DNA of 64,000 nucleotides from Bauldia sp. (GTDB lineage: Bacteria; Pseudomonadota; Alphaproteobacteria; Rhizobiales; Kaistiaceae): NCBI GenBank assembly GCA_026126025.1, contig JAHCJZ010000002.1:1-64000 (forward strand), given 5' to 3'. The notes under the pieces were generated by a model, which worked only from the letters and a program-made list of their open reading frames with translations, had not been told where the DNA came from and did no database searches. The translations under genes were made by a program, and so were the position numbers. This document shows positions 31,439-42,996 of the stretch, one piece after another (position 1 is the first letter of the stretch; every line of letters begins with the position of its first letter).

Positions 31439-32424
31439 GAATCCGCACGCCGTTCATCTGGCCGCCGGAGAAGCAGGCGCTTCGGCAGAAGGCGATCCGC
31501 CTCGAATGGATCACGATCGCGGTCATGGGATCGGCGACGATCCTCCTCTTCTTCACCGCCGGAACCTCGCAGGCGATGCGGACGGCGTTCTTCGACGACC
31601 TCATGGGGCTCGTTCCGCCGATCGCGTTCCTCCTCGCGGTGCGCTTCGAGCGGCGCCGGCCCAACCGCGATTTCCCATTCGGCTACTACCGCGGCGTCTC
31701 GATCGCCCATTTCGTCTCGGCGCTCACGCTGTTCGCGCTGGGGGCGTTCCTCGTGGTGGAGTCGGCCAGTTCGCTGCTGCGCGGCGAACGGCCGTCGCTG
31801 GGGACGCTCACGATCTTCGGCCTCGACGTCTGGGCGGGCTGGGTGATGATCGCCGCGCTGGTCTACAGCACGATTCCGCCCGTGATCCTCGGCCGGCTGA
31901 AGACGCCGATCGCCGCCGCGCTCCACGACAAGGTGCTGGTCGCGGACGCGGCGCTGCAGAAGGCAGACTGGATGACCGGCATCGCCGCGATCGCGGGGAT
32001 CGTCGGCATCGGGTTCGGGCTGTGGTGGTTCGACGCGGCGGCCGCCGGGCTCATCGCGCTCGACATCCTCTATGACGGCGTGAAGCACCTCTCCCGCGCG
32101 GCGCGCGATCTCGCCGACGAGGCGCCGCGCACCGTGGAGGACGACCATCGCGACCCGGTGGTGACGAAGGTGCGCAATGCCGCGCTCGCCCTCCCCTGGG
32201 TCGAGGGCGCGGCGGTGAATTTCCGCGGGGAAGGGCATCTCCTCTCCGGCGTGATCTACGTCGCCCCGAAGCCGCGGACCGCGCATCTCGTCGACCGCGC
32301 GGAGGAGGTGCGCGAGGCCGCCAAGGCGGTCGACTGGCGCGTCCACGACCCCGACGTCGCTTTCGTTCCCCTCGACGCGCTGCCTTCCGGCGCCAGATCG
32401 GCCGGCGGCGCGGCGAAAGACTGA
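31435..32424 (+). CDS. Cation diffusion facilitator-like membrane protein (atypical sites)
   Basis: A 329-residue protein; the GTG at 31435 overlaps the previous stop. About six TM helices and a C-terminal ferredoxin-like cytoplasmic domain (TKVRNAALALPWVEGAAVNF onward) fit the CDF/cation-efflux family. Aligned to E. coli YiiP by eye, the TM5 metal motif HxxxD reads ADAALQKAD, with Leu where His is expected. The TM2 DxxxD reads FFDDLMGLV, with Gly for the second Asp. Zn2+ selectivity is therefore doubtful; another ion or a non-transport role is possible. It is coupled to a one-lobe binding lipoprotein. Confidence is moderate for the fold and low for the substrate. Confidence 0.72.
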   Translation: MRIRTPFIWPPEKQALRQKAIRLEWITIAVMGSATILLFFTAGTSQAMRTAFFDDLMGLVPPIAFLLAVRFERRRPNRDFPFGYYRGVSIAHFVSALTLFALGAFLVVESASSLLRGERPSLGTLTIFGLDVWAGWVMIAALVYSTIPPVILGRLKTPIAAALHDKVLVADAALQKADWMTGIAAIAGIVGIGFGLWWFDAAAAGLIALDILYDGVKHLSRAARDLADEAPRTVEDDHRDPVVTKVRNAALALPWVEGAAVNFRGEGHLLSGVIYVAPKPRTAHLVDRAEEVREAAKAVDWRVHDPDVAFVPLDALPSGARSAGGAAKD

Positions 32425-32460
32425 CGGCGGGGAACCTATCCCGGCGTTTGCGATTGCCTC

Positions 32461-32477
32461 GTTGGAAGGGTTCCAAC
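32461..32477. promoter_or_regulatory. Palindrome at the start of the oxidase operon
   Basis: GTTGGAAGGGTTCCAAC is a perfect 7-bp inverted repeat with a 3-base centre, ending 11 bp before the first ATG of the cytochrome/oxidase operon and touching its ribosome site (CGGAG). It may be a repressor operator or an RNA hairpin that modulates translation. Confidence 0.45.
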
Positions 32478-32487
32478 GGAGTGGTCG

Positions 32488-33255
32488 ATGCGGAAGCGAT
32501 CGGCATTCGGGTCCGGCATAGCGGCGGTGGCGGTGGTCGCCGCCCTGCACGCGGCCGCGCAATCGCCGGAGCCGGCGGCGGAGGTGCTGACGCCGGACGC
32601 CGAGCGCGGCCAGGCGGTCGCGGTCGGCGCCAGCGCACCAGACCAGGCTTGCATGGCGTGCCACGGGGTCGACGGCGCGGGCGACGCGGCGGCCGCCTTT
32701 CCGCGCCTCGCCGGGCAGTCCTTCGTCTATCTCGCGACGACGCTGATCGACTTCGCGTCGGGCGAAAGGCCGCACGAGATCATGACGCCGATCGCGGAGG
32801 CGCTGACCCGCCAGGAGATCATCGACGTCGCCGCCTATTACGCGACGCTGACCGACACGCCGTTCGCCCCGCCGTCTGCCGAAACCGACGCGGCGCTGCT
32901 CCAACGCGGCGGCACGATTGCCGCGCTCGGCCTCGCGCCGGCGGGCGTCCAGGGCTGCATCAACTGCCACGGACCGGACGGCGGCGGCCTCGGCTACGAG
33001 TATCCCGCGATCGGCGGCCAGCATGCGGCCTATCTCGCGGCGCGGCTGCACGCCTTCAAGACGGCCGAGAGCGTCGGCGATGCGCAGGCGATCATGCGCG
33101 GCATTGCGAGCCGCCTGAGCGACGAGGACATCGCCGCGGTCGCCGCCTACTACGCCGCGCTCCGCCCGCCGCCGCTCGCCCAGGACGACATCGCCGAGCT
33201 GCCGCCGCAGCTGATCGACGCCTTCAACGACGACGACGGGGAGGATGCCGAATGA
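32488..33255 (+). CDS. Di-heme cytochrome c (c4/c553-like)
   Basis: A 255-residue periplasmic protein with a Sec signal peptide (RKRSAFGSG, then a hydrophobic stretch ending AAAQS). It has two heme c sites, CMACH (55-59) and CINCH (157-161). Each is in a repeat of the type FPRLAGQSFVYLATTLIDFASGER / YPAIGGQHAAYLAARLHAFKTAE, with Met ligands in EIMTPIA and AIMRGIA. It carries electrons from the neighbouring flavoprotein toward the oxidase. Its stop overlaps the next start (ATGA). It leads the operon, and its paralogue lies four genes on. Confidence 0.9.
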   Translation: MRKRSAFGSGIAAVAVVAALHAAAQSPEPAAEVLTPDAERGQAVAVGASAPDQACMACHGVDGAGDAAAAFPRLAGQSFVYLATTLIDFASGERPHEIMTPIAEALTRQEIIDVAAYYATLTDTPFAPPSAETDAALLQRGGTIAALGLAPAGVQGCINCHGPDGGGLGYEYPAIGGQHAAYLAARLHAFKTAESVGDAQAIMRGIASRLSDEDIAAVAAYYAALRPPPLAQDDIAELPPQLIDAFNDDDGEDAE

Positions 33256-34076
33256 CGAAGCGCGACACGCGCGACCGCGACCGGGACGCGCCCTCCGCGC
33301 TGTCGCGGCGCGACCTCTTCAAGGCCGCGGCGGCCGCGGGCGTCGTTGCCGCGGTGCCGACGGTCGCGGCCGGGCAGGAGAGTGCTCCAGCTCCCTCTGC
33401 TTCGCCGGCCGGACCGCCAGCAGCTGCGCCCGGTGCCGGCCCGGTGGCGCAGGCTCCGGCTGCACGTCCGGTGCTGTTCTTCTTCAACGACGAGGAGGCG
33501 CGGTTCGTCGAGGCGGCGATCGACCGGCTCATCCCCGCCGATCCGGAATGGCCGGGCGCGGTCTGGGCTGGCGTCCTCACCTTCATCGACCGCCAGCTCG
33601 CGGGTCCCTATGGCGACGGCGCCAAGACCTATCTCGCCGGGCCGTGGACGCCCGACGCGCCGCCGGAGCAAGGCTACCAGCATCGCTACACGCCGGCCGA
33701 GATCTTCCGCATCGGCATCGCCGAGGTGCGGGCGCACGTCACGGAGACGCGGGACGCGGAGTTCGCCGAGCTCGGCGCCGACGCGATTGACGCGGTGCTG
33801 ACCGCGCTGGAAGCCGGCGAGATCGAGCTGCCGTCGATCCCGTCCGCGCTCTTCTTCAGCGTCCTCCTCGACAACACGGTGCAGGGCTGGTTCGCCGACC
33901 CGGTGCATGGCGGCAACCGCGACATGGTTTCGTGGCGGATGGTCGGCTTCCCCGGCGCCTATGCGCAGTACCTGGAGACTGTCGACATCTTCAATCTCGA
34001 CTACCGGCGCGAGCCGGTGAGCATCGCCGACGCCGCGGCCCGCGCCGTGCATCTCGGCGGCCACCACGAACATTGA
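33252..34076 (+). CDS. Gluconate 2-dehydrogenase subunit 3-like (gamma, Tat-exported)
   Basis: A 274-residue protein. A twin-arginine signal, LSRRDLFKAAAAAGVVAAVP, is at about residues 20-40, followed by a Pro/Ala-rich linker. The body, FFFNDEEARFVEAAIDRLIP then TFIDRQLAGPYGDGAKTY and ending GNRDMVSWRMVGFPGAYA, is the small subunit of gluconate/glucose dehydrogenase complexes. In these complexes the gamma subunit carries the only Tat signal and takes the folded flavoprotein across the membrane with it. The following GMC protein has no signal of its own, in line with that. The start overlaps the preceding cytochrome stop by 4 bp, and the GMC gene follows after 10 bp. Confidence 0.87.
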   Translation: MTKRDTRDRDRDAPSALSRRDLFKAAAAAGVVAAVPTVAAGQESAPAPSASPAGPPAAAPGAGPVAQAPAARPVLFFFNDEEARFVEAAIDRLIPADPEWPGAVWAGVLTFIDRQLAGPYGDGAKTYLAGPWTPDAPPEQGYQHRYTPAEIFRIGIAEVRAHVTETRDAEFAELGADAIDAVLTALEAGEIELPSIPSALFFSVLLDNTVQGWFADPVHGGNRDMVSWRMVGFPGAYAQYLETVDIFNLDYRREPVSIADAAARAVHLGGHHEH

Positions 34077-34086
34077 GGGGTGCACG

Positions 34087-35844
34087 ATGGCGGTCCGGCT
34101 TCCCGAGATCGATGTGGTGCTGGTGGGCGGCGGGATGACCGCGGCCATCGTCGGCAAGGAGCTCGCCGAGGCGGGGCAGCGCGTGGTGGCGCTGGAGCGC
34201 GGCCAGATGCGCCAGACCGTGCCCGACTTCCAGTCGCCCACCATGCATGACGAGCTGACCTATTCGATCCGCCATGCGCTGATGCAGAATCCGGAGCAGC
34301 AGACCATCACCTTCCGCAACCGGCCGGACCAGACGCCGCTGCCGATGCGGCGGCTCGGCTCGTTCCTTCCGGGCGAAGGCGTCGGCGGCGCGATGGTGCA
34401 CTGGAACGGCGTCACCTGGCGCTTCCAGCCGGAATGGTTCGAGCTGAAGAGCTGGACCGAGGAGCGCTACGGCCGGGGCTTCGTGTCGGACGAGGTGACG
34501 ATCCAGGACTGGGGCGTCACCTATGACGAGCTCGAGCCCTATTACGACTTCTTCGAGAAGATCTGCGGCACCGGCGGCCTGCCCTATGGCGACCTGACCG
34601 GCGGCAATCCATTCGGCGGGCGGCGCTCCAATCCCTATCCCAACCCGCCGATGAAGGAGCCCTACGCGCTCAACCTCTTCCGCACTGCGGCCGCGGGCAT
34701 GGGCTATTCGCCCTTCCCGGCGCCCTCGTCCAATGCGACGCGGCACTATGTGAACCCCTATGGCGCGGAGCTGAAGCCGTGCATGTATTGCGGCTATTGC
34801 GAGCGCCATGGCTGCGAGCATTTCGCCAAGGCGAGCCCGCAGGTTTCGATCCTGCCCGCCGCGCTCGCCAACCCCAATTTCGAGATGCGCACCGGCGCGT
34901 GGGTCACGCGCATCGAGCACGATCCCGACGCCGGAATCGTCACCGGCGTGACCTATGTCGATGCGGCGGGACGCGAGGTGTTCCAGCCCGCGTCGATGGT
35001 GGTGCTGTGCGCCTATGCCTACCACAACGCGGTGCTGATGCTGCAGTCGGGGATCGGCCAGCCCTACGACCCCGCGACGCAGACCGGCACCGTCGGCCGC
35101 AACTATTGCTACCAGACCTTCGGCGGCGCGACGGTGTTCTTCGACGGCACGGTGCGCTTCAACCCCTATATGGGCGCCGGGGCGCTCGGCGTCGTCATCG
35201 ACGACTTCAACAACGGGTCGATGGATCATTCCGAGCTCGGCTTCCTCGGCGGGGCCTCGACCTCGGTGTCGCAGGCGAGCGGGCGCCCGATCGCGTTTCA
35301 CCCGGTCCCCGGCGACACGCCCGGCTGGGGCCTCGCGTGGAAGGAGGCGGTGCGCCGCCACTACAACAGCACGCTGTCGATCAGCGCCCAGGGCTCGTCT
35401 CTGCCGCACCCGAACAATTATCTCGGGCTCGACCGCACCTACACCGACGCCTTCGGCAACCCGCTCGGGATGCTGACCTTCGATTTTCCCGACAATGACC
35501 GCCGCATGGCGGCGTTCCTGACCGAGCGCTGCGTGGAGATCGGCGAGGCGATGGGCGCGTCGGTTGTCGAAGGCAACGACCTCGCCGAGCACTATTCGAT
35601 CGTGCCCTACCAGTCGACGCACAACACCGGCGGCACGGTGATGGGCGCCGACCCGACCACCAGCGTCGTCAACCGCTATCTCCAGAGCTGGGACTGCCAC
35701 AACCTCTTCGTCATGGGCGCGGGCGTCTTCCCGCAGAACGCCGGCTACAACCCGACCGGCACGGTCGGCGCCCTCGCCTATTGGGCGGTCGACGCGATCA
35801 AGAACCAGTATCTCCGCAATCCCGGCCCGCTGGTGCAGGCATGA
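34087..35844 (+). CDS. GMC flavoprotein dehydrogenase with cysteine cluster (FAD-GDH / gluconate-DH-like)
   Basis: A 585-residue catalytic subunit. An FAD Rossmann motif, VVLVGGGMTAAIVGKELAEAG, is at residues 10-30, then GEGVGGAMVHWNGVTWRF. A cysteine set C-x2-C-x2-C-x4-C (Cys232, 235, 238, 243) lies in KPCMYCGYCERHGCEHFAK. The C-terminal GMC motifs are STHNTGGTVMGAD and QNAGYNPTGTVGALAYWAVDAI with the catalytic His/Asn. The cysteines match the place where FAD glucose dehydrogenase holds a 3Fe-4S cluster (family knowledge). It oxidises a sugar, sugar acid or polyol in the periplasm and passes electrons to the cytochromes. The substrate is not predictable. The stop overlaps the next cytochrome start. 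Confidence 0.9.
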   Translation: MAVRLPEIDVVLVGGGMTAAIVGKELAEAGQRVVALERGQMRQTVPDFQSPTMHDELTYSIRHALMQNPEQQTITFRNRPDQTPLPMRRLGSFLPGEGVGGAMVHWNGVTWRFQPEWFELKSWTEERYGRGFVSDEVTIQDWGVTYDELEPYYDFFEKICGTGGLPYGDLTGGNPFGGRRSNPYPNPPMKEPYALNLFRTAAAGMGYSPFPAPSSNATRHYVNPYGAELKPCMYCGYCERHGCEHFAKASPQVSILPAALANPNFEMRTGAWVTRIEHDPDAGIVTGVTYVDAAGREVFQPASMVVLCAYAYHNAVLMLQSGIGQPYDPATQTGTVGRNYCYQTFGGATVFFDGTVRFNPYMGAGALGVVIDDFNNGSMDHSELGFLGGASTSVSQASGRPIAFHPVPGDTPGWGLAWKEAVRRHYNSTLSISAQGSSLPHPNNYLGLDRTYTDAFGNPLGMLTFDFPDNDRRMAAFLTERCVEIGEAMGASVVEGNDLAEHYSIVPYQSTHNTGGTVMGADPTTSVVNRYLQSWDCHNLFVMGAGVFPQNAGYNPTGTVGALAYWAVDAIKNQYLRNPGPLVQA

Positions 35845-36548
35845 AGCGCGCGGCCGCCCTCGGCATCGCGGTTTCGCTGAGCGCGGCGGCGGCGCTGGCG
35901 CAAAGCGACCCGCTCGGCCTCGGCCTTCCCGAGCCCGCTGCGCGCGAGGAGGGCGACCCGGTGCGCGGCCAGGCCATCGCGCTCGGCGGGCCGTTCGAGG
36001 ATCTCGGCCGCGTCTCCTGCGCCCAGTGTCACGGCATCGACGGCACCGGCGACGACAGCGGCGCGTTCCCGCGGCTGGCCGGTCAAGGCGCGTTCTATCT
36101 CTACGAGGCGCTCAACGATTTCGCGACGGGGGCGCGGCCGAACGAGGTGATGTCGCCGATCGCGGCGCAACTCTCGGACACCGACCGCCGCGATGTCGCC
36201 GCCTATTTCGCGGCGATCGAGGACGCCGCCTATCCCGCGCCGCGCGACGCGAATGCCGACCTTCTCCAGCGCGGCGGGGCGCTCGCCGCGATCGGCGGCA
36301 TCGGCGGCGACGTGCCGGCCTGCGATTCCTGCCACGGCGCGCAAGGCGCGGGCGTGCCGCCGGTCTACCCGACGCTTGGCGGCCAGCACGAGGCGTATCT
36401 CGTCCAGCAGCTGGAACTGTTCCGCTCGGGCGAGCGCGGCAGCGATGCGCTCGGCGTCATGCGGGCGATCGCGGCGCTGCTCTCCGACGACGACATCGCC
36501 GCCGTCGCGGCCTACTACGCATCGGTCCGGCCGGAGCCGTCGCCGTGA
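35841..36548 (+). CDS. Di-heme cytochrome c, paralogue of the first
   Basis: A 235-residue protein starting at ATG 35841, overlapping the GMC stop (ATGA). A short signal peptide ends at ALAQS. Heme sites are CAQCH and CDSCH. The repeat segments AFPRLAGQGAFYLYEALNDF and YPTLGGQHEAYLVQQLELF closely resemble the first di-heme cytochrome of this operon, so the two arose by duplication. It probably acts as the cytochrome (beta) subunit of the dehydrogenase or as relay to the caa3 oxidase. Its stop overlaps the next GTG. Confidence 0.88.
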   Translation: MKRAAALGIAVSLSAAAALAQSDPLGLGLPEPAAREEGDPVRGQAIALGGPFEDLGRVSCAQCHGIDGTGDDSGAFPRLAGQGAFYLYEALNDFATGARPNEVMSPIAAQLSDTDRRDVAAYFAAIEDAAYPAPRDANADLLQRGGALAAIGGIGGDVPACDSCHGAQGAGVPPVYPTLGGQHEAYLVQQLELFRSGERGSDALGVMRAIAALLSDDDIAAVAAYYASVRPEPSP

Positions 36549-36928
36549 CGGTCGCCCGGCGGCTGGTCTCGACAGGCGTCGCCGCATCGCTCCTTCTCGC
36601 CGCAGGCTGCGACCGCGACGCGGCGCCGCAAACGCGGATCGTCGCCGACGGCGATCCGGGGCACGGCCGCCAGCTCATCGCCGAGGTCGCCTGCGGCGTC
36701 TGCCATATCATCCCCGGCGTGCGGGGCGCGGCGGGAACTGTCGGCCCGTCGCTGGCGGGCTTCGCCGAGCGGAACCTCATTGCGGGCGTCCTCCCCAACA
36801 CGCCGTCGGAGCTCGCGCGCTGGGTCCGCGACGCGCCGTCTTTGGTGCCCGAGACCGCCATGCCGCCGATGCCGCTCAGCGAGGACGAGGCCGTCAATGT
36901 CGCCGCCTATCTCCTCACGCTGCGCTAG
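36545..36928 (+). CDS. Small mono-heme cytochrome c lipoprotein
   Basis: A 127-residue protein with GTG start overlapping the previous stop. The lipobox SLLLAAGC anchors it in the membrane. One heme site, CGVCH, lies in AEVACGVCHIIPGVRGAAG, and the Met ligand is likely in ETAMPPMPLSEDEA. The fold is that of the cytochrome c domain of oxidase subunit II (GPSLAGFAERNLIAGVLPNT), so it is probably a membrane-tethered direct donor to the oxidase. The oxidase subunit II gene starts 32 bp before its stop, in another frame. Confidence 0.85.
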   Translation: MTVARRLVSTGVAASLLLAAGCDRDAAPQTRIVADGDPGHGRQLIAEVACGVCHIIPGVRGAAGTVGPSLAGFAERNLIAGVLPNTPSELARWVRDAPSLVPETAMPPMPLSEDEAVNVAAYLLTLR

Positions 36929-37880
36929 GGCCGCAGCGGTCGTCGGCGCCGCTGCCGCGCTGGCCGCCTGCGACGGCCCGCAGGCCGCGCTCGACCCCGC
37001 GGGCCCCGACGCCGAAGCGATCTCGACCATCGCCTGGGTGATGTTCGGCGGCGCCGCGATCGTCTTCATCGTCGTGCTGGTTGCCGTCGCGTGGGCGCTT
37101 CGCGCGCGGCGCGCCCGCGAGGGCCGCGGGCTCATCATCGCGGGCGGCGTCGTCTTCCCGCTGGTCGTCCTCACCGCGCTCCTCGTCTTCGGGCTCACCG
37201 TTTCGAGCCGCATCAACGCTGAGCCCGACGATGCGCTCACCATCCGGGTGACGGGCAAGCAATGGTGGTGGCAGGTCGACTATCTCGACGCCGGCGAGCC
37301 GGTGCTGACCACTGCCAACGACATCGTCGTCCCGGTCGGCGCTCCCGTCCGCTTCGTGCTGACCACCGATGACGTGATCCACTCGTTCTGGGTGCCGTCG
37401 CTCGGCGGCAAGCTCGACATGATTCCCGGACGGATCAACGAGACGGTGCTCCAGGCCGATGTCGCCGGCGCCTATCGCGGCCAGTGCGCGGAGTTCTGCG
37501 GCGACCAGCATGCGCTGATGGCGTTCACCGTCGCCGCCACCGACGATTTCGCCGCGTGGCTGGCCGCGCAGCAGCGCCCCGCCGCCGAACCGGTGACCGA
37601 CCTCGAAGCGCGCGGCGCGGCGCTGTTCCTGGAGAATGGCTGCGGCGCCTGCCACACGATCCGCGGCACCGACGCTGACGGGACCATCGGCCCCGACCTC
37701 ACCCATGTCGGCGGCCGCCCGACGATCGCGGCGGGAACGCTGCCGAACAACCAGGGGACGCTCGCGGGCTGGATCGCCGATGCGCAGGCGATCAAGCCCG
37801 GCGCGCGGATGCCGTCCTTCGACCGGCTCGCCGGCCCCGAGCTGCGCGCCCTCGCCGCCTATCTCGCGAGCCTCGAATGA
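36897..37880 (+). CDS. coxM: Cytochrome c oxidase subunit II with fused cytochrome c (caa3)
   Basis: A 327-residue protein from the ATG at 36897, the only start codon before the lipoprotein-like signal ALAACDG. Two TM helices (about 40-65 and 80-105) precede a cupredoxin domain with GKQWWWQVDY, HSFWVPSLGGKLDMIPG and the CuA loop CAEFCGDQHALMAF. A C-terminal cytochrome c domain with CGACH and PDLTHVGGRPT is fused on. This makes the enzyme a caa3 type that accepts electrons through its own heme c. It overlaps the previous gene by 32 bp and the next by 4. The gene name follows the rhizobial coxMNOP alternative oxidase and is tentative. Confidence 0.93.
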   Translation: MSPPISSRCARAAAVVGAAAALAACDGPQAALDPAGPDAEAISTIAWVMFGGAAIVFIVVLVAVAWALRARRAREGRGLIIAGGVVFPLVVLTALLVFGLTVSSRINAEPDDALTIRVTGKQWWWQVDYLDAGEPVLTTANDIVVPVGAPVRFVLTTDDVIHSFWVPSLGGKLDMIPGRINETVLQADVAGAYRGQCAEFCGDQHALMAFTVAATDDFAAWLAAQQRPAAEPVTDLEARGAALFLENGCGACHTIRGTDADGTIGPDLTHVGGRPTIAAGTLPNNQGTLAGWIADAQAIKPGARMPSFDRLAGPELRALAAYLASLE

Positions 37881-40411
37881 GCGACACCACCGCGCCCGAT
37901 CTCCCGAACCCCCTGCCGCGACCGCCAGGCGAACTGGAGGAGCTGGAGCGGGTGTGGCGGCGGCCGCGCGGCATCCGCCGGCTCACCGAGGTCAACAATT
38001 CGCAGATCGGCCTCTACTACATCGGCACCGCGGTGATGTTCTTCCTGTTCGCCGGCGTGCTGGCGCTGCTGATGCGCGCGCAGCTCGCGCTGCCGGAGAA
38101 CGCGCTGGTCGACCACGACCTCTACAACCAGCTCTTCACCATGCACGGCACGGTGATGATGTTTCTCTTCGCCGTGCCGGCGGTGGAGGCGATGGGCGTC
38201 CTTCTCCTGCCCAGCATGGTCGCCGCCCGCGACCTCCCCTTCCCGCGCCTCTCGGCCTACGCCTTCTGGGCCTATTTCATCGGCGGCACGATCTTCCTCG
38301 TCAGCCTCTTCCTCGACGTGGCGCCGCGCGCGGGCTGGTTCATGTACCCGCCGCTGTCGAGCGCCGAATACACGCCCGACGTCAGCTCCGATTTCTGGCT
38401 CCTCGGCATCGGCTTCATCGAGATCTCGGCGATCGCGGGAGCGATCGAGATCATCGTGGGCGTGCTGCGTACCCGCGCGCCCGGCATGTCGCTCGACAAG
38501 ATGCCGGTGTTCGCCTGGGTGATGCTCGTCTTCGCCGGGATGATCGTGTTCGCCTTCCCGGCGATGATCGCCGGCACGGCGCTTCTCGAGCTGGAGCGGG
38601 CGTTCGACTGGCCGTTCTTCATCGCCGAGCGCGGCGGCGACCCGCTGCTGTGGCAGCACCTCTTCTGGTTCTTCGGCCACCCCGAGGTCTACATCATCTT
38701 CCTGCCGGCGGCGGGCTTCCTGTCGATGATCGTCCCTACGCTCGCCCGACGGCCGCTGATCGGCTACCGCGCCATCGTCCTTGCGGTGATCGGCACCGGA
38801 TTCCTCAGCTTCGGGCTGTGGGTCCACCACATGTTCACCACCGGCCTTCCCGCGATCTCGATGTCGTTCTTCTCGGCGGCGTCGATGGCGGTCGCGATCC
38901 CCTCCGGCATCCAGATCTTCGCCTGGATCGCGACGATCGCGGCGGGCCGGATGCAGCTGACGACGCCCGCGCTGTTCGTCCTCGGCTTCCTCTTCATCTT
39001 CACCATCGGCGGGCTCAGCGGCGTCATGGTGGCGATGGTGCCGTTCGACTGGCAGGCGCACGACACCTATTTCATCGTCGCCCACCTCCACTACGTGCTG
39101 ATCGGCGGGATGGTCTTCCCGCTCTTCGCGGCGATCTACTATTGGGTGCCGATGATCAGCCGGCGGCGGCTGTCGGAACGCATTGGCAAGGTCGTCGCGG
39201 TCCTCCTCTTCCTCGGCGTGAACCTCGCCTTCTTCCCGATGCATGTCAGCGGGCTGATGGGGATGCCGCGCCGGGTCTACACCTACCCGGACGGGCTGGG
39301 CTGGGAGGTCACCAACCTCCTCTCCACCATCGGCGCCTTCGTCATTGCCGCCGGCGTCGCGCTGTTCCTGTTCGACCTCGCCCGCAATCTCCGGCTGAGC
39401 ACCACGCGCAATGCCGGCAATGTCTGGGATGCGGGCACGCTGGAATGGCTGCCGACCGGCACCTACCAGACCCGCAGCATCCCGATCGTCACCAGCCGCG
39501 ATCCGCTGTGGGACCAGCCGAACCTTGCCGCCGACGTCGAGGCGGGGCGCTACTACCTCCCGGGCACCGCCACCGGCCGTCGCGAGACCATCGTCACCAG
39601 CAGCGTCGACGCACGGCCGCAATATGTCCTGACGCTGCCCGGCCCGGGCTGGACGCCGTTCTTCAGCGCAGCGTTCACCGCCGCGGCCTTCATGCTGCTC
39701 ACGGTGAAGGCGGTGATCCCCGCGATCCTCTGCGGCGCGATCGCGATCGGGGGAATCATCGCATGGATGTGGCGCGCCGACATCGGACCGCGCGCACCGG
39801 TCGACATCGGTGGCGGGCTCCGGCTGCCGGTGAACATCACCGGACGCAACGCCCACGCGACCGCGGGGACCGTCGTCCTCATCCTTTGCGCCGGCACGCT
39901 CTTCGGCTGCCTCCTCTTCGCGTATTTCTTCCTCTGGACCGTCAACGCGGACTGGCCGCCCGCCGGGGCGGGCGCGCCGTCGCCGAGCTGGGCGGCGATC
40001 GCGGCCGTCCTGCTCCTTGCCGCCAGCCTCGCCTGGCGCGCCGGGCGCGGGGTGCTCACCAGCCACGACCAGCCCCGGCCGCGGCTCATGTTCCGTCTGC
40101 TCGTGCTCGGCGCCGCGGCCGCGGCGACCGCCGCGGTCGTCGCCGACGGCGTGTCGCTGTGGCAGGCCGGGCTGCGGCCGGCCGACAGCGCCTATGGCGC
40201 CATCCTCTACGCGATCACCGCCTACCAGGCGTTCCTGACCGGCGCGCTCATCATCATGGCCGGCATCGTCTTCGCCCGCTCGCTGGCCGGCCGCATCGGC
40301 GGGCCGTGGCGGCTGAGCTTCGAGGTCACCGCGCTGTTCGGCCACTATGTCGTCGTGCAGGGCCTCGTCGCCCTCGCCGTCACGCGGCTCTTTCCGGGGG
40401 TGGCGTCGTGA
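37877..40411 (+). CDS. coxN: Cytochrome c oxidase subunit I-III fusion
   Basis: An 844-residue membrane protein. Residues 1 to about 560 are subunit I: heme a ligands His90 and His405, CuB ligands His268, His317 and His318, heme a3 ligand His403. In GHPEVY, Glu270 is the D-channel glutamate and Tyr272 the cross-linked tyrosine, so it is an A1-type proton-pumping oxidase by motif. After a linker, the part from about 640 is a subunit III-like bundle with NITGRNAHATAGTVVLIL and LFAYFFLWTVNADWPPAG. The I-III fusion is known in caa3 enzymes. It reduces O2 to water using electrons from the CuA/heme c subunit. Confidence 0.94.
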   Translation: MSDTTAPDLPNPLPRPPGELEELERVWRRPRGIRRLTEVNNSQIGLYYIGTAVMFFLFAGVLALLMRAQLALPENALVDHDLYNQLFTMHGTVMMFLFAVPAVEAMGVLLLPSMVAARDLPFPRLSAYAFWAYFIGGTIFLVSLFLDVAPRAGWFMYPPLSSAEYTPDVSSDFWLLGIGFIEISAIAGAIEIIVGVLRTRAPGMSLDKMPVFAWVMLVFAGMIVFAFPAMIAGTALLELERAFDWPFFIAERGGDPLLWQHLFWFFGHPEVYIIFLPAAGFLSMIVPTLARRPLIGYRAIVLAVIGTGFLSFGLWVHHMFTTGLPAISMSFFSAASMAVAIPSGIQIFAWIATIAAGRMQLTTPALFVLGFLFIFTIGGLSGVMVAMVPFDWQAHDTYFIVAHLHYVLIGGMVFPLFAAIYYWVPMISRRRLSERIGKVVAVLLFLGVNLAFFPMHVSGLMGMPRRVYTYPDGLGWEVTNLLSTIGAFVIAAGVALFLFDLARNLRLSTTRNAGNVWDAGTLEWLPTGTYQTRSIPIVTSRDPLWDQPNLAADVEAGRYYLPGTATGRRETIVTSSVDARPQYVLTLPGPGWTPFFSAAFTAAAFMLLTVKAVIPAILCGAIAIGGIIAWMWRADIGPRAPVDIGGGLRLPVNITGRNAHATAGTVVLILCAGTLFGCLLFAYFFLWTVNADWPPAGAGAPSPSWAAIAAVLLLAASLAWRAGRGVLTSHDQPRPRLMFRLLVLGAAAAATAAVVADGVSLWQAGLRPADSAYGAILYAITAYQAFLTGALIIMAGIVFARSLAGRIGGPWRLSFEVTALFGHYVVVQGLVALAVTRLFPGVAS

Positions 40412-40743
40412 CCGCGGTTCCCGCCTCCCGGCGCGCCGCCGCGGCGCTGCCGTTCCTCTTCGCCGGGCTGATCGTCTGGGCGGTGCGGTTCCTCGCGGTC
40501 TACGGCTTCACCGCGATCGCCTGCGTGAACGGATGGTCCGGCGCGGTGCCGGTCGTAATCGTCGCGGCGAGCGTGGTCGCCATCGCCGTCAACGGCGTCG
40601 TCATCGCCGCAGGCCTTCGCCGCAACGGCTCGGAGGCCGGCCGCTTCCTCGGGCTGATCGCGGCGGCGGTCGCCGCGCTCTCCATCATCGCCATCGTATT
40701 CGAGACGCTGCCGGCCTTCCTGGTGGACGCATGCGCCGCGTGA
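40408..40743 (+). CDS. Small oxidase-associated membrane protein
   Basis: A 111-residue protein; GTG start overlapping the previous stop (GTGA). Three TM helices are clear: ALPFLFAGLIVWAVRFLAVYG, AVPVVIVAASVVAIAVNGVV and FLGLIAAAVAALSIIAIVFE. It has no recognisable cofactor ligands. Its place between the subunit I-III gene and ctaG, overlapping both, marks it as an accessory or small structural subunit, comparable with the last small product of coxMNOP clusters. Confidence 0.7.
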   Translation: MTAVPASRRAAAALPFLFAGLIVWAVRFLAVYGFTAIACVNGWSGAVPVVIVAASVVAIAVNGVVIAAGLRRNGSEAGRFLGLIAAAVAALSIIAIVFETLPAFLVDACAA

Positions 40744-41633
40744 CGCTTGTCGTGCTCCTGGCGCTCGCGCCCGCCAGCGCGGCGGCGCATGGCGGCGGCG
40801 AGATCATCTTCCCCGCCGAGGTGCTCAGCCACTGGCATCCCGACCCGCTGCCCCTCCTCCTCGCGCTCGGCGTGGTCGCGCTTTACGGCATCGGCCTCAC
40901 GCGCCTGTGGCGCCGCGCAGGTGTCGGGCGCGGCGTGCGCGGCTGGCAGGCCGGGCTGTTCGCCGGCGGCGTCCTCCTCTTCCTCTTCGCGCTCGCCTCG
41001 CCGCTGGAATCGGTGACCGGGACGCTCCTCACCGCACACATGATCCAGCACGTGACGCTGGTCGCGGCGGCGCCGGCGCTCGTCCTTCTCGGCCGTCCGG
41101 ACATCGTCCTCCTCTGGACGATCCCGCAGCGCTGGCGGCACGGGACGGCGGCCGCACTCAGCACCGCCGCGAACGTCCTCCGGCCGCTGGTCCGGCCGGT
41201 GCCCGCGGCGCTGATCCACGGCGCGGTGATCTGGGCGTGGCACGCGCCGCCGCTCTTCGAAGCCGCGCTCGCCAGCGACCTCGTCCACGACCTCGAGCAC
41301 GCGACCTTCGTGGCGACCGCCTTCCTGTTCTGGCAAGCGATCTTCCTGGCGATGCGGCGCAGCGCATGGCGCCTCGCCGGCCTCGTGGCGATCGTGCTGA
41401 CCGTCATCCAGAGCGGCCTCCTCGGCGCCCTCCTCACGCTCTCCAACCGCGTGCTCTACCCCGCCTATGGCGACGGGCCGCTCGCCTGGAACCTCACGGC
41501 CCTGGCGGACCAGCAGCTGGCCGGGCTCGTCATGTGGGTTCCCGCTGCCGCGGCCTATCTCGCGGCGGGCGTTGCGCTGGGCGCGGCCATCCTCGGCTTC
41601 ACCGGCATGCCGCGTCCGCAAAGACTCACCTGA
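40731..41633 (+). CDS. ctaG: Caa3-type oxidase assembly protein CtaG
   Basis: A 300-residue protein overlapping the previous gene by 13 bp. A signal-like segment ends at ASAAAHGGG, followed by about seven TM helices and the conserved features LSHWHPDPLPLLLALG, LTAHMIQHVTLVAAAPALVLLG, GAVIWAWHAPPLFEAAL and LVHDLEHATFVATAFLFWQ. These His-rich motifs define the Caa3_CtaG family, needed for assembly (copper insertion) of caa3 oxidases, distinct from Cox11-type CtaG. It is the last gene of the operon. Confidence 0.88.
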   Translation: MRRVTLVVLLALAPASAAAHGGGEIIFPAEVLSHWHPDPLPLLLALGVVALYGIGLTRLWRRAGVGRGVRGWQAGLFAGGVLLFLFALASPLESVTGTLLTAHMIQHVTLVAAAPALVLLGRPDIVLLWTIPQRWRHGTAAALSTAANVLRPLVRPVPAALIHGAVIWAWHAPPLFEAALASDLVHDLEHATFVATAFLFWQAIFLAMRRSAWRLAGLVAIVLTVIQSGLLGALLTLSNRVLYPAYGDGPLAWNLTALADQQLAGLVMWVPAAAAYLAAGVALGAAILGFTGMPRPQRLT

Positions 41634-41788: not shown

Positions 41789-42922
41789 CTATTCCGTCGA
41801 AAGGGGCGTCGCCGGGCCGATTCGGCTGACGAGTTCGACAAGCTGAACCTGGCGCGTGATCTCGAGCTTCGAGTAGATCCATTTGAGGTACGTCCGCACG
41901 GTCGCTTCCGTCAGACCGAGCTCACGCGCCACCTGAGCGGCCGTCATTCCGGCACCGACGAGCGCGGCGACCTGGGCCTCCGATGGAGGCAGGCCAAGGA
42001 GGATCAGTGCATCGATAGCGGTCGAATGGCGACGTCGCGGATCGGGATCGACCAGGATCAGGATCGTTGCAACGGGCCCCCGCGCGAAGACCCATTCGGG
42101 CTCCGACGACGCTTCGTCGACCGGAACGGCGCGCGCGAGGAGAGGTCGCTGCCCATGATCGCGGGGAATCCTGACAGAACGCCGAGGCGGCCGTTCGACA
42201 AGCATTCGGTCCAGAGCGGACTGGCTGTCGGGCGACCGGCAGCGGAGCCGGCCGCCCACGATCCTGAGGCCATCGGACAGAATCCGGTCAGCCCATTGTG
42301 TGGTCCTGACAACGAAACCATCCGCGGTCAGGAAGATCGCAGCCACACCAGCATCATCGAGCGCCGCCGACCAAGCCACGGCGTCGCTGGACGCCAGGGT
42401 TGCGCGGTCGACCAGGGCGAGGCTCATTTCGAGATGGTCGGTGAACAGGGCAATGCCCGCCAGCTCATCCGAGCTGAACGCGCCGGTGCCGGCGTTCCGG
42501 TCGAGGATGAGGACTGCGCGTCGACCCTCGCCAAGCGACAGCAAGGTACCCGCGAAGTCACCGAAACCGACCGGATTCAGGAACTCCTTGTAGAAGCCAC
42601 GCAGCGCGTTCTCATGCAGCGTGCCAACCACTTCGTCCGTAATGATCCGGGCACCGAAGTACGGATCGGTCAGGCTCTTGGCGATGACATGGACGCGCGG
42701 ACAGCGGATGTGCCACTCGTCCTCGAAATAGGTCTCGATGAAGCTTTCCTGCCCCGGAGAGCAAAGGTGCGGTCGCTCCGGATCGAGCGGGTATCTCAGG
42801 AGCGACGCGAAGCGCGCCCCGGTCGCCTCTGCGACCGCCCCCAGCGTTGTTGACCAGGACTGGCGCCCCAGCGCCGCGGCATAGATGAGCCGTATCGTGT
42901 CGTGCACAGCATTTGCCCGCAT
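41789..42922 (-). CDS. LuxR-type transcriptional regulator
   Basis: A 377-residue protein (the ATG at 42922 has GGGGAG close by; another ATG lies 18 bp upstream without an SD). The C-terminal 65 residues form a LuxR/GerE helix-turn-helix: LGLPPSEAQVAALVGAGMTAAQVARELGLTEATVRTYLKWIYSKL. The long N-terminal part, TIRLIYAAALGRQSWSTTLGAV onward, resembles the GAF/PAS-like input of rhizobial LuxR regulators that sense unknown ligands. It is divergent from the orphan binding-protein gene, which it probably controls. An inverted repeat TCCCA-N4-TGGGA lies between them. Confidence 0.85.
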   Translation of the reverse strand: MRANAVHDTIRLIYAAALGRQSWSTTLGAVAEATGARFASLLRYPLDPERPHLCSPGQESFIETYFEDEWHIRCPRVHVIAKSLTDPYFGARIITDEVVGTLHENALRGFYKEFLNPVGFGDFAGTLLSLGEGRRAVLILDRNAGTGAFSSDELAGIALFTDHLEMSLALVDRATLASSDAVAWSAALDDAGVAAIFLTADGFVVRTTQWADRILSDGLRIVGGRLRCRSPDSQSALDRMLVERPPRRSVRIPRDHGQRPLLARAVPVDEASSEPEWVFARGPVATILILVDPDPRRRHSTAIDALILLGLPPSEAQVAALVGAGMTAAQVARELGLTEATVRTYLKWIYSKLEITRQVQLVELVSRIGPATPLSTE

Positions 42923-42996
42923 GCGCTCCCCTCGGGCCATGGCTGGGCCGGCACCCAGGAACCAAGCGGCCGCCTAGCGCGCCGCATCCCGCGATA

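Follow-up and report, generated by a model that had tools for sequence, protein, structure and literature searches.

Does a gene cluster of Bauldia sp. that encodes a GMC flavoprotein beside a caa3 oxidase specify a periplasmic chain to O2 that by-passes quinone and the bc1 complex, and is the dehydrogenase dedicated to that one oxidase? Both had been proposed in a sequence-only reading of the 64,000-nt stretch of DNA analysed here (the window). We find that the nine-gene cluster is real, conserved and functionally sensible, and we weigh below the routes by which its electrons could reach O2.

Organization of the gene cluster

The nine genes lie on the forward strand at 32488-41633. Their eight junctions are, in order, a 4-bp overlap, a 10-bp gap, two 4-bp overlaps, a 32-bp overlap and three more 4-bp overlaps, i.e. 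4 bp at 6 of 8, in agreement with the earlier description of overlaps or gaps of at most 10 bp; the genes are presumably co-transcribed. The first gene (cytc4a, 32488-33255) encodes an exported, c4-like diheme cytochrome c with the motifs CMACH and CINCH (domain search and hydropathy). It is followed by a gamma, or hitchhiker, subunit of the gluconate 2-dehydrogenase subunit 3 family (33252-34076; PF13618, 1.8e-28), which carries a twin-arginine (Tat) signal, and by the catalytic GMC flavoprotein (34087-35844; PF05199, PF00732). Then come a second diheme cytochrome, cytc4b (35841-36548; CAQCH, CDSCH), whose closest match is cytochrome c4 (6q2u, 7.7e-31), in support of a c4-type carrier; a monoheme cytochrome c (36545-36928; CGVCH), predicted to be a lipoprotein from its lipobox LAAGC; the oxidase subunit II, CoxB (36897-37880; PF00116), with the CuA motif CAEFCGDQHALM and a C-terminal heme c domain (CGACH); and an 844-aa CoxA-CoxC fusion (COX1-3; 37877-40411) that scores above the cut-off of TIGR02891. 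The last two genes encode a 111-aa protein with three transmembrane segments (40408-40743) and the copper-insertion factor CtaG (40740-41633; Caa3_CtaG family, PF09678).

Domain searches agree with the placing of GMC, gamma, three cytochromes c and caa3 in a single operon, and the CxxCH motifs (two each in cytc4a and cytc4b, one each in the monoheme protein and CoxB) add up to the six c-type hemes counted before. The oxidase had also been called complete, which holds for the oxidase subunits and CtaG only, because the genes for heme A synthesis are outside the cluster. The GC content is 0.70 in the cluster and in the remainder of the window, so base composition lends no support to a recent horizontal gain. 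An Rfam search returned nothing. A LuxR-type regulator gene at 41789-42940 is convergent with the operon, and nothing points to its control of the operon.

The dehydrogenase

In sequence searches the best solved relatives of the GMC protein were fructose dehydrogenase (FDH; the 7w2j group, ~1e-34) and Burkholderia glucose dehydrogenase (BcGDH). An AlphaFold model, built from the window protein and its relatives (36 sequences; pLDDT 85.6, pTM 0.90), had FDH and BcGDH as its top structural matches, with a TM-score of ~0.7 to the query and 23-25% identity. Two histidines, His512 (catalytic-type) and His105 (FAD-linking-type), do not vary among the 36 sequences, and neither do the four cysteines of the motif C232-x2-C235-x2-C238-x4-C243. 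In BcGDH, Cys212, Cys218 and Cys222 hold a 3Fe-4S cluster, and electrons pass from FAD through this cluster to heme c (PMC6719666). The cysteine spacing of the window protein (C-x2-C-x2-C-x4-C) differs from that of BcGDH (C212-x5-C218-x3-C222); a cysteine-bound Fe-S cluster is a putative, though likely, feature of the window protein. The earlier reading named a sugar, polyol or sugar acid as substrate. This class is a tentative assignment, taken solely from distant homology (~25% identity to the solved relatives). The gamma subunit gave no convincing solved relative in a single-sequence search, and its gene is the only PF13618 gene of the genome, which thus has no second gamma subunit.

Conservation of the operon in a GMC clade

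Scanning GTDB genomes yielded 80 loci, and those with a GMC identity of at least 60% have the operon. Of the 101 GMC sequences placed in a tree, 16 form a single clade (SH-aLRT 96); 14 of these have the operon and two are incomplete, and the operon label changes only once on the tree. One incomplete locus ends with its contig (L036). The other, in Aquabacter (L026), was considered as a full operon and then counted as incomplete, as no recognisable coxAC was found after coxB. The conservation of the operon, which the earlier reading suggested checking, was observed: the gene set is present again at 13 other loci and partly at two more, and because of this recurrence the arrangement is not a product of chance.

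The clade spans Methylobacteriaceae, Xanthobacteraceae, Nitrobacteraceae, Rhodospirillaceae, Acetobacteraceae/Roseomonadaceae and the window's own family, along with a further family of the class (G075) and one Hydrogenophilales MAG. The order of the genes varies little, with the exceptions of Rhodoplanes (L041), where the two halves are divergent, and of Roseomonas-type loci, where ctaG is upstream. Within the class, close relatives of the GMC protein are uncommon, being present in 15 of 385 genomes. None of the 16 clade loci has a triheme subunit, and many GMC relatives outside the clade have the order gamma-GMC-triheme typical of fructose and gluconate dehydrogenases.

Outside the clade, linkage of gamma-GMC to a COX1-3 oxidase was seen at L024, L081 and L103 (with triheme) and on Sulfitobacter pontiacus plasmids. 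One such plasmid (L174) has in a row gamma-GMC-cytochrome c, DedA, an APC permease, coxB and ctaD, with Dps and SOD genes nearby. Three betaproteobacterial MAGs (L063, L064, L085) have a tandem pair of GMC-family genes with one gamma gene. Among the neighbours of the operons we found no widespread recurrent partner gene, bar Cu,Zn-SOD near several copies.

The pairing of dehydrogenase and oxidase is one-sided

The GMC clade retains an adjacent caa3 oxidase, but GMC is not the sole electron source that the caa3-cytochrome module serves. In other members of the class, the closest oxidases have no GMC gene beside them. Neighbours of such GMC-free oxidases include genes for PQQ-type dehydrogenases (L158, L162), for a GSDH-type protein (L152) and, at L187, for an alternative-complex-III-like set (pentaheme, Fe-S/Mo and NrfD proteins); the variety of neighbours, GMC among them, suggests a plug-in design. 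In a sister species (G002, locus L185), compared with window positions 31449-39966, cytc1-coxB-coxAC-ctaG and the cation-efflux gene keep the order they have in the window, and the 4.3-kb cytc4a/gamma/GMC/cytc4b stretch is replaced by 1.35 kb with an inverted c4 homologue. The oxidase tree pairs the window enzyme with that of G002 as its sister (100/100) and spreads the GMC-linked oxidases over several branches, with 5 label changes, at least 4 of them forced by starred branches. From this scatter it follows that caa3 stays with GMC though the oxidase lineage differs; repeated GMC loss and oxidase exchange would both fit. Of the claim that the two enzymes are hard-wired, the dehydrogenase's half is upheld and the oxidase's half is not.

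The operon might then be one of convenience, in which caa3 would be a general oxidase, fed mainly by bc1 through the c4 and monoheme cytochromes, and GMC would deliver electrons to a shared cytochrome c pool with neither physical nor exclusive coupling. The occurrence of the oxidase and related cytochromes without GMC, also at the syntenic locus of the sister species, fits such a view, as does the bc1 complex of the genome. However, caa3 is kept by the GMC clade across several families and oxidase lineages, and the tight overlapping arrangement of all nine genes likewise argues against this view, so that we consider a mere convenience unlikely.

Electron route

We infer that the operon probably encodes a modular, quinone-independent periplasmic chain ending in caa3. 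A Tat-exported gamma-GMC heterodimer would use FAD to oxidise a substrate of the alcohol, sugar or sugar-acid type; the electrons would pass by way of the probable Fe-S centre to the diheme cytochromes of c4 type and the monoheme cytochrome with its lipid anchor, from there into CoxB (heme c and CuA), and finally to O2 at heme a3-CuB. The absence of a subunit like the triheme of quinone-linked relatives leads us to propose that quinone and bc1 are by-passed, and a route free of both is the best reading because the Tat-exported GMC of FDH/BcGDH fold, the c4-like cytochromes and caa3 share one conserved operon, the whole clade lacks the triheme and the genome offers no second gamma subunit. The by-pass put forward in the earlier reading thus stands as the preferred account of the operon's content, and its strict dedication does not. 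Against such a chain, and against its exclusivity, the same genome also encodes bc1 and an ordinary aa3 oxidase, by which c4, once reduced, could pass its electrons to aa3, or caa3 could be supplied by bc1. The GMC-free syntenic locus of G002 and the cysteine spacing unlike that of BcGDH also count against it.

Alternatively, the dehydrogenase could reduce quinone through an unrecognised cytochrome, e.g. the first diheme, with the oxidase joined for co-regulation only. Relatives outside the clade do use a triheme subunit, and related flavoprotein-cytochrome dehydrogenases operate in ubiquinone-linked chains (PMC9171043). In the window, however, the operon has no triheme gene, the dihemes have no C-terminal transmembrane segment by hydropathy, and the second diheme matches c4, which makes this route very improbable. 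If the quinone-independent chain is correct, a single operon would specify a compact path from sugar or alcohol to O2 outside the quinone pool, and its coupled enzymes might be of use for electrodes and biosensors.

An oxidase with glutamine in the K channel

We class the oxidase as caa3 by its sequence and its other features, the K-channel lysine excepted. The features of an A1-type enzyme that we found are CuA and the C-terminal heme c in CoxB, the D-channel Asp and Glu, and the His-Tyr pair (HPEVY). Lys354 (Paracoccus numbering) is part of the K channel of A-type oxidases (PMC3084760), and in the window CoxA-CoxC its place is taken by Gln. Equivalents of Ser291, Tyr280, Asp124 and Glu278 are kept, and Thr351 is replaced by Ser. 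The position is Gln in 39 of 39 distinct COX1-3-type sequences and in nine further fused oxidases, and Lys in 10 of 10 single COX1 proteins, the genome's own aa3 included. These counts leave out the divergent, ~650-aa proteins of L144-L146. The latter three (L144, L145, L146) are COX1-like; they have Trp at the Glu position of HPEVY, and their K-channel residue is Ala, Gly or Ser. K-channel variants have been discussed for archaeal oxidases (PMC8239418), and in the open-access literature searched we found no statement of a Lys-to-Gln change in the K channel of COX1-3. Since the change occurs naturally in every COX1-3 fusion examined, the role of the lysine can be tested in natural enzymes.

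The 111-aa protein encoded beside the COX1-3 gene has a position like that of CtaF/COX4, a conserved W..HF..VY and two Cys, and no Pfam or NCBIfam match; it is possibly an unnamed oxidase subunit.

Upstream region and possible stress regulation

The consensus recognized by sigma-EcfG, the general stress sigma factor of alphaproteobacteria, is GGAAC-N15..17-CGTT. On the forward strand at 32431-32454, 57 bp before the first ATG, the window has a weak candidate promoter of this type, GGAAC-N15-CGAT, with one mismatch. In four Microvirga copies of the operon a perfect GGAAC-N16/17-CGTT lies 65-74 bp ahead of the first gene; a further two copies have a one-mismatch site at 74-75 bp. Eight of 84 units are preceded by a perfect site (L028, L029, L030 and L032, 65-74 bp upstream; L024, L082, L099 and L103, near the unit start), compared with 0.55% of random windows. 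Such frequencies, together with Cu,Zn-SOD genes near several copies, speak for an EcfG-driven stress module that would mainly maintain energy or remove O2 in non-growing cells, a role compatible with the quinone-independent chain. Four of the eight units are near relatives, however, gene-upstream controls have perfect sites at 2.6%, the window's own site is mismatched, and the Sod_Cu gene of its genome is on another contig. A stress module of this kind is accordingly possible but rather doubtful, and the link of the operon to EcfG, read from these sites, is suggestive only. No paper describing one was found in the open-access literature searched.

A bolder version would make the operon a stress-induced, quinone-independent unit, in which a GMC protein of a distinct clade is complexed with the c4 cytochromes and with a caa3 that works without the K-channel lysine considered indispensable in A-type enzymes, so that its proton uptake and pumping would be altered; we regard this combination as unlikely.

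Cu,Zn-SOD genes were seen near GMC-oxidase clusters at L027, L028, L032, L103, L167 and L174; copies in Microvirga, Pseudorhizobium, G075 and Sulfitobacter have them nearby. Immediately ahead of the operon (32460-32478, unstranded) lies a perfect 8-bp inverted repeat with a 3-nt loop, CGTTGGAA-GGG-TTCCAACG, a candidate operator or 5′ hairpin. Scans for sigma-70 promoters and terminators gave no more hits than in shuffled sequences.

Relation to known systems

In an open-access search, which covers part of the literature, we found no published description of a GMC-caa3 operon. Dehydrogenases of the PQQ type in oxidase operons are already known from COX operon type a-II (PMC4013037), which resembles the window in encoding a periplasmic dehydrogenase within an oxidase operon. 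The window, however, has a flavin GMC enzyme instead of a PQQ enzyme (a domain search found no PQQ-dependent dehydrogenase in its operon), and COX1-3 instead of the COX1-COX4 type.

The dehydrogenase half is related to FDH (7w2j), BcGDH (6a2u) and gluconate dehydrogenase, with which it shares the Tat gamma subunit, the GMC subunit, the catalytic His and a group of cysteines in the corresponding loop; identity is ~25%, and the cysteines are spaced differently. The triheme c electron-transfer subunit of the FDH, GADH and BcGDH heterotrimers is absent from the window operon, which has c4-like dihemes and caa3 instead. The oxidase half resembles COX operon type a caa3 with its COX1-3 fusion (Degli Esposti 2014, PMC4013037) in the fused CoxA-CoxC, the heme c of CoxB, CtaG and a small membrane protein; the window adds upstream cytochrome and dehydrogenase genes, and has the K-channel Gln that is also present in the other COX1-3 relatives examined. 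Thermus thermophilus caa3 (2yev) likewise combines an I+III fusion with a heme c on subunit II. The Thermus enzyme has been described as A2 type (PMC6431628), whereas the window oxidase has the A1-type Glu in HPEVY, and chains other than those of 2yev are closer to it in sequence.
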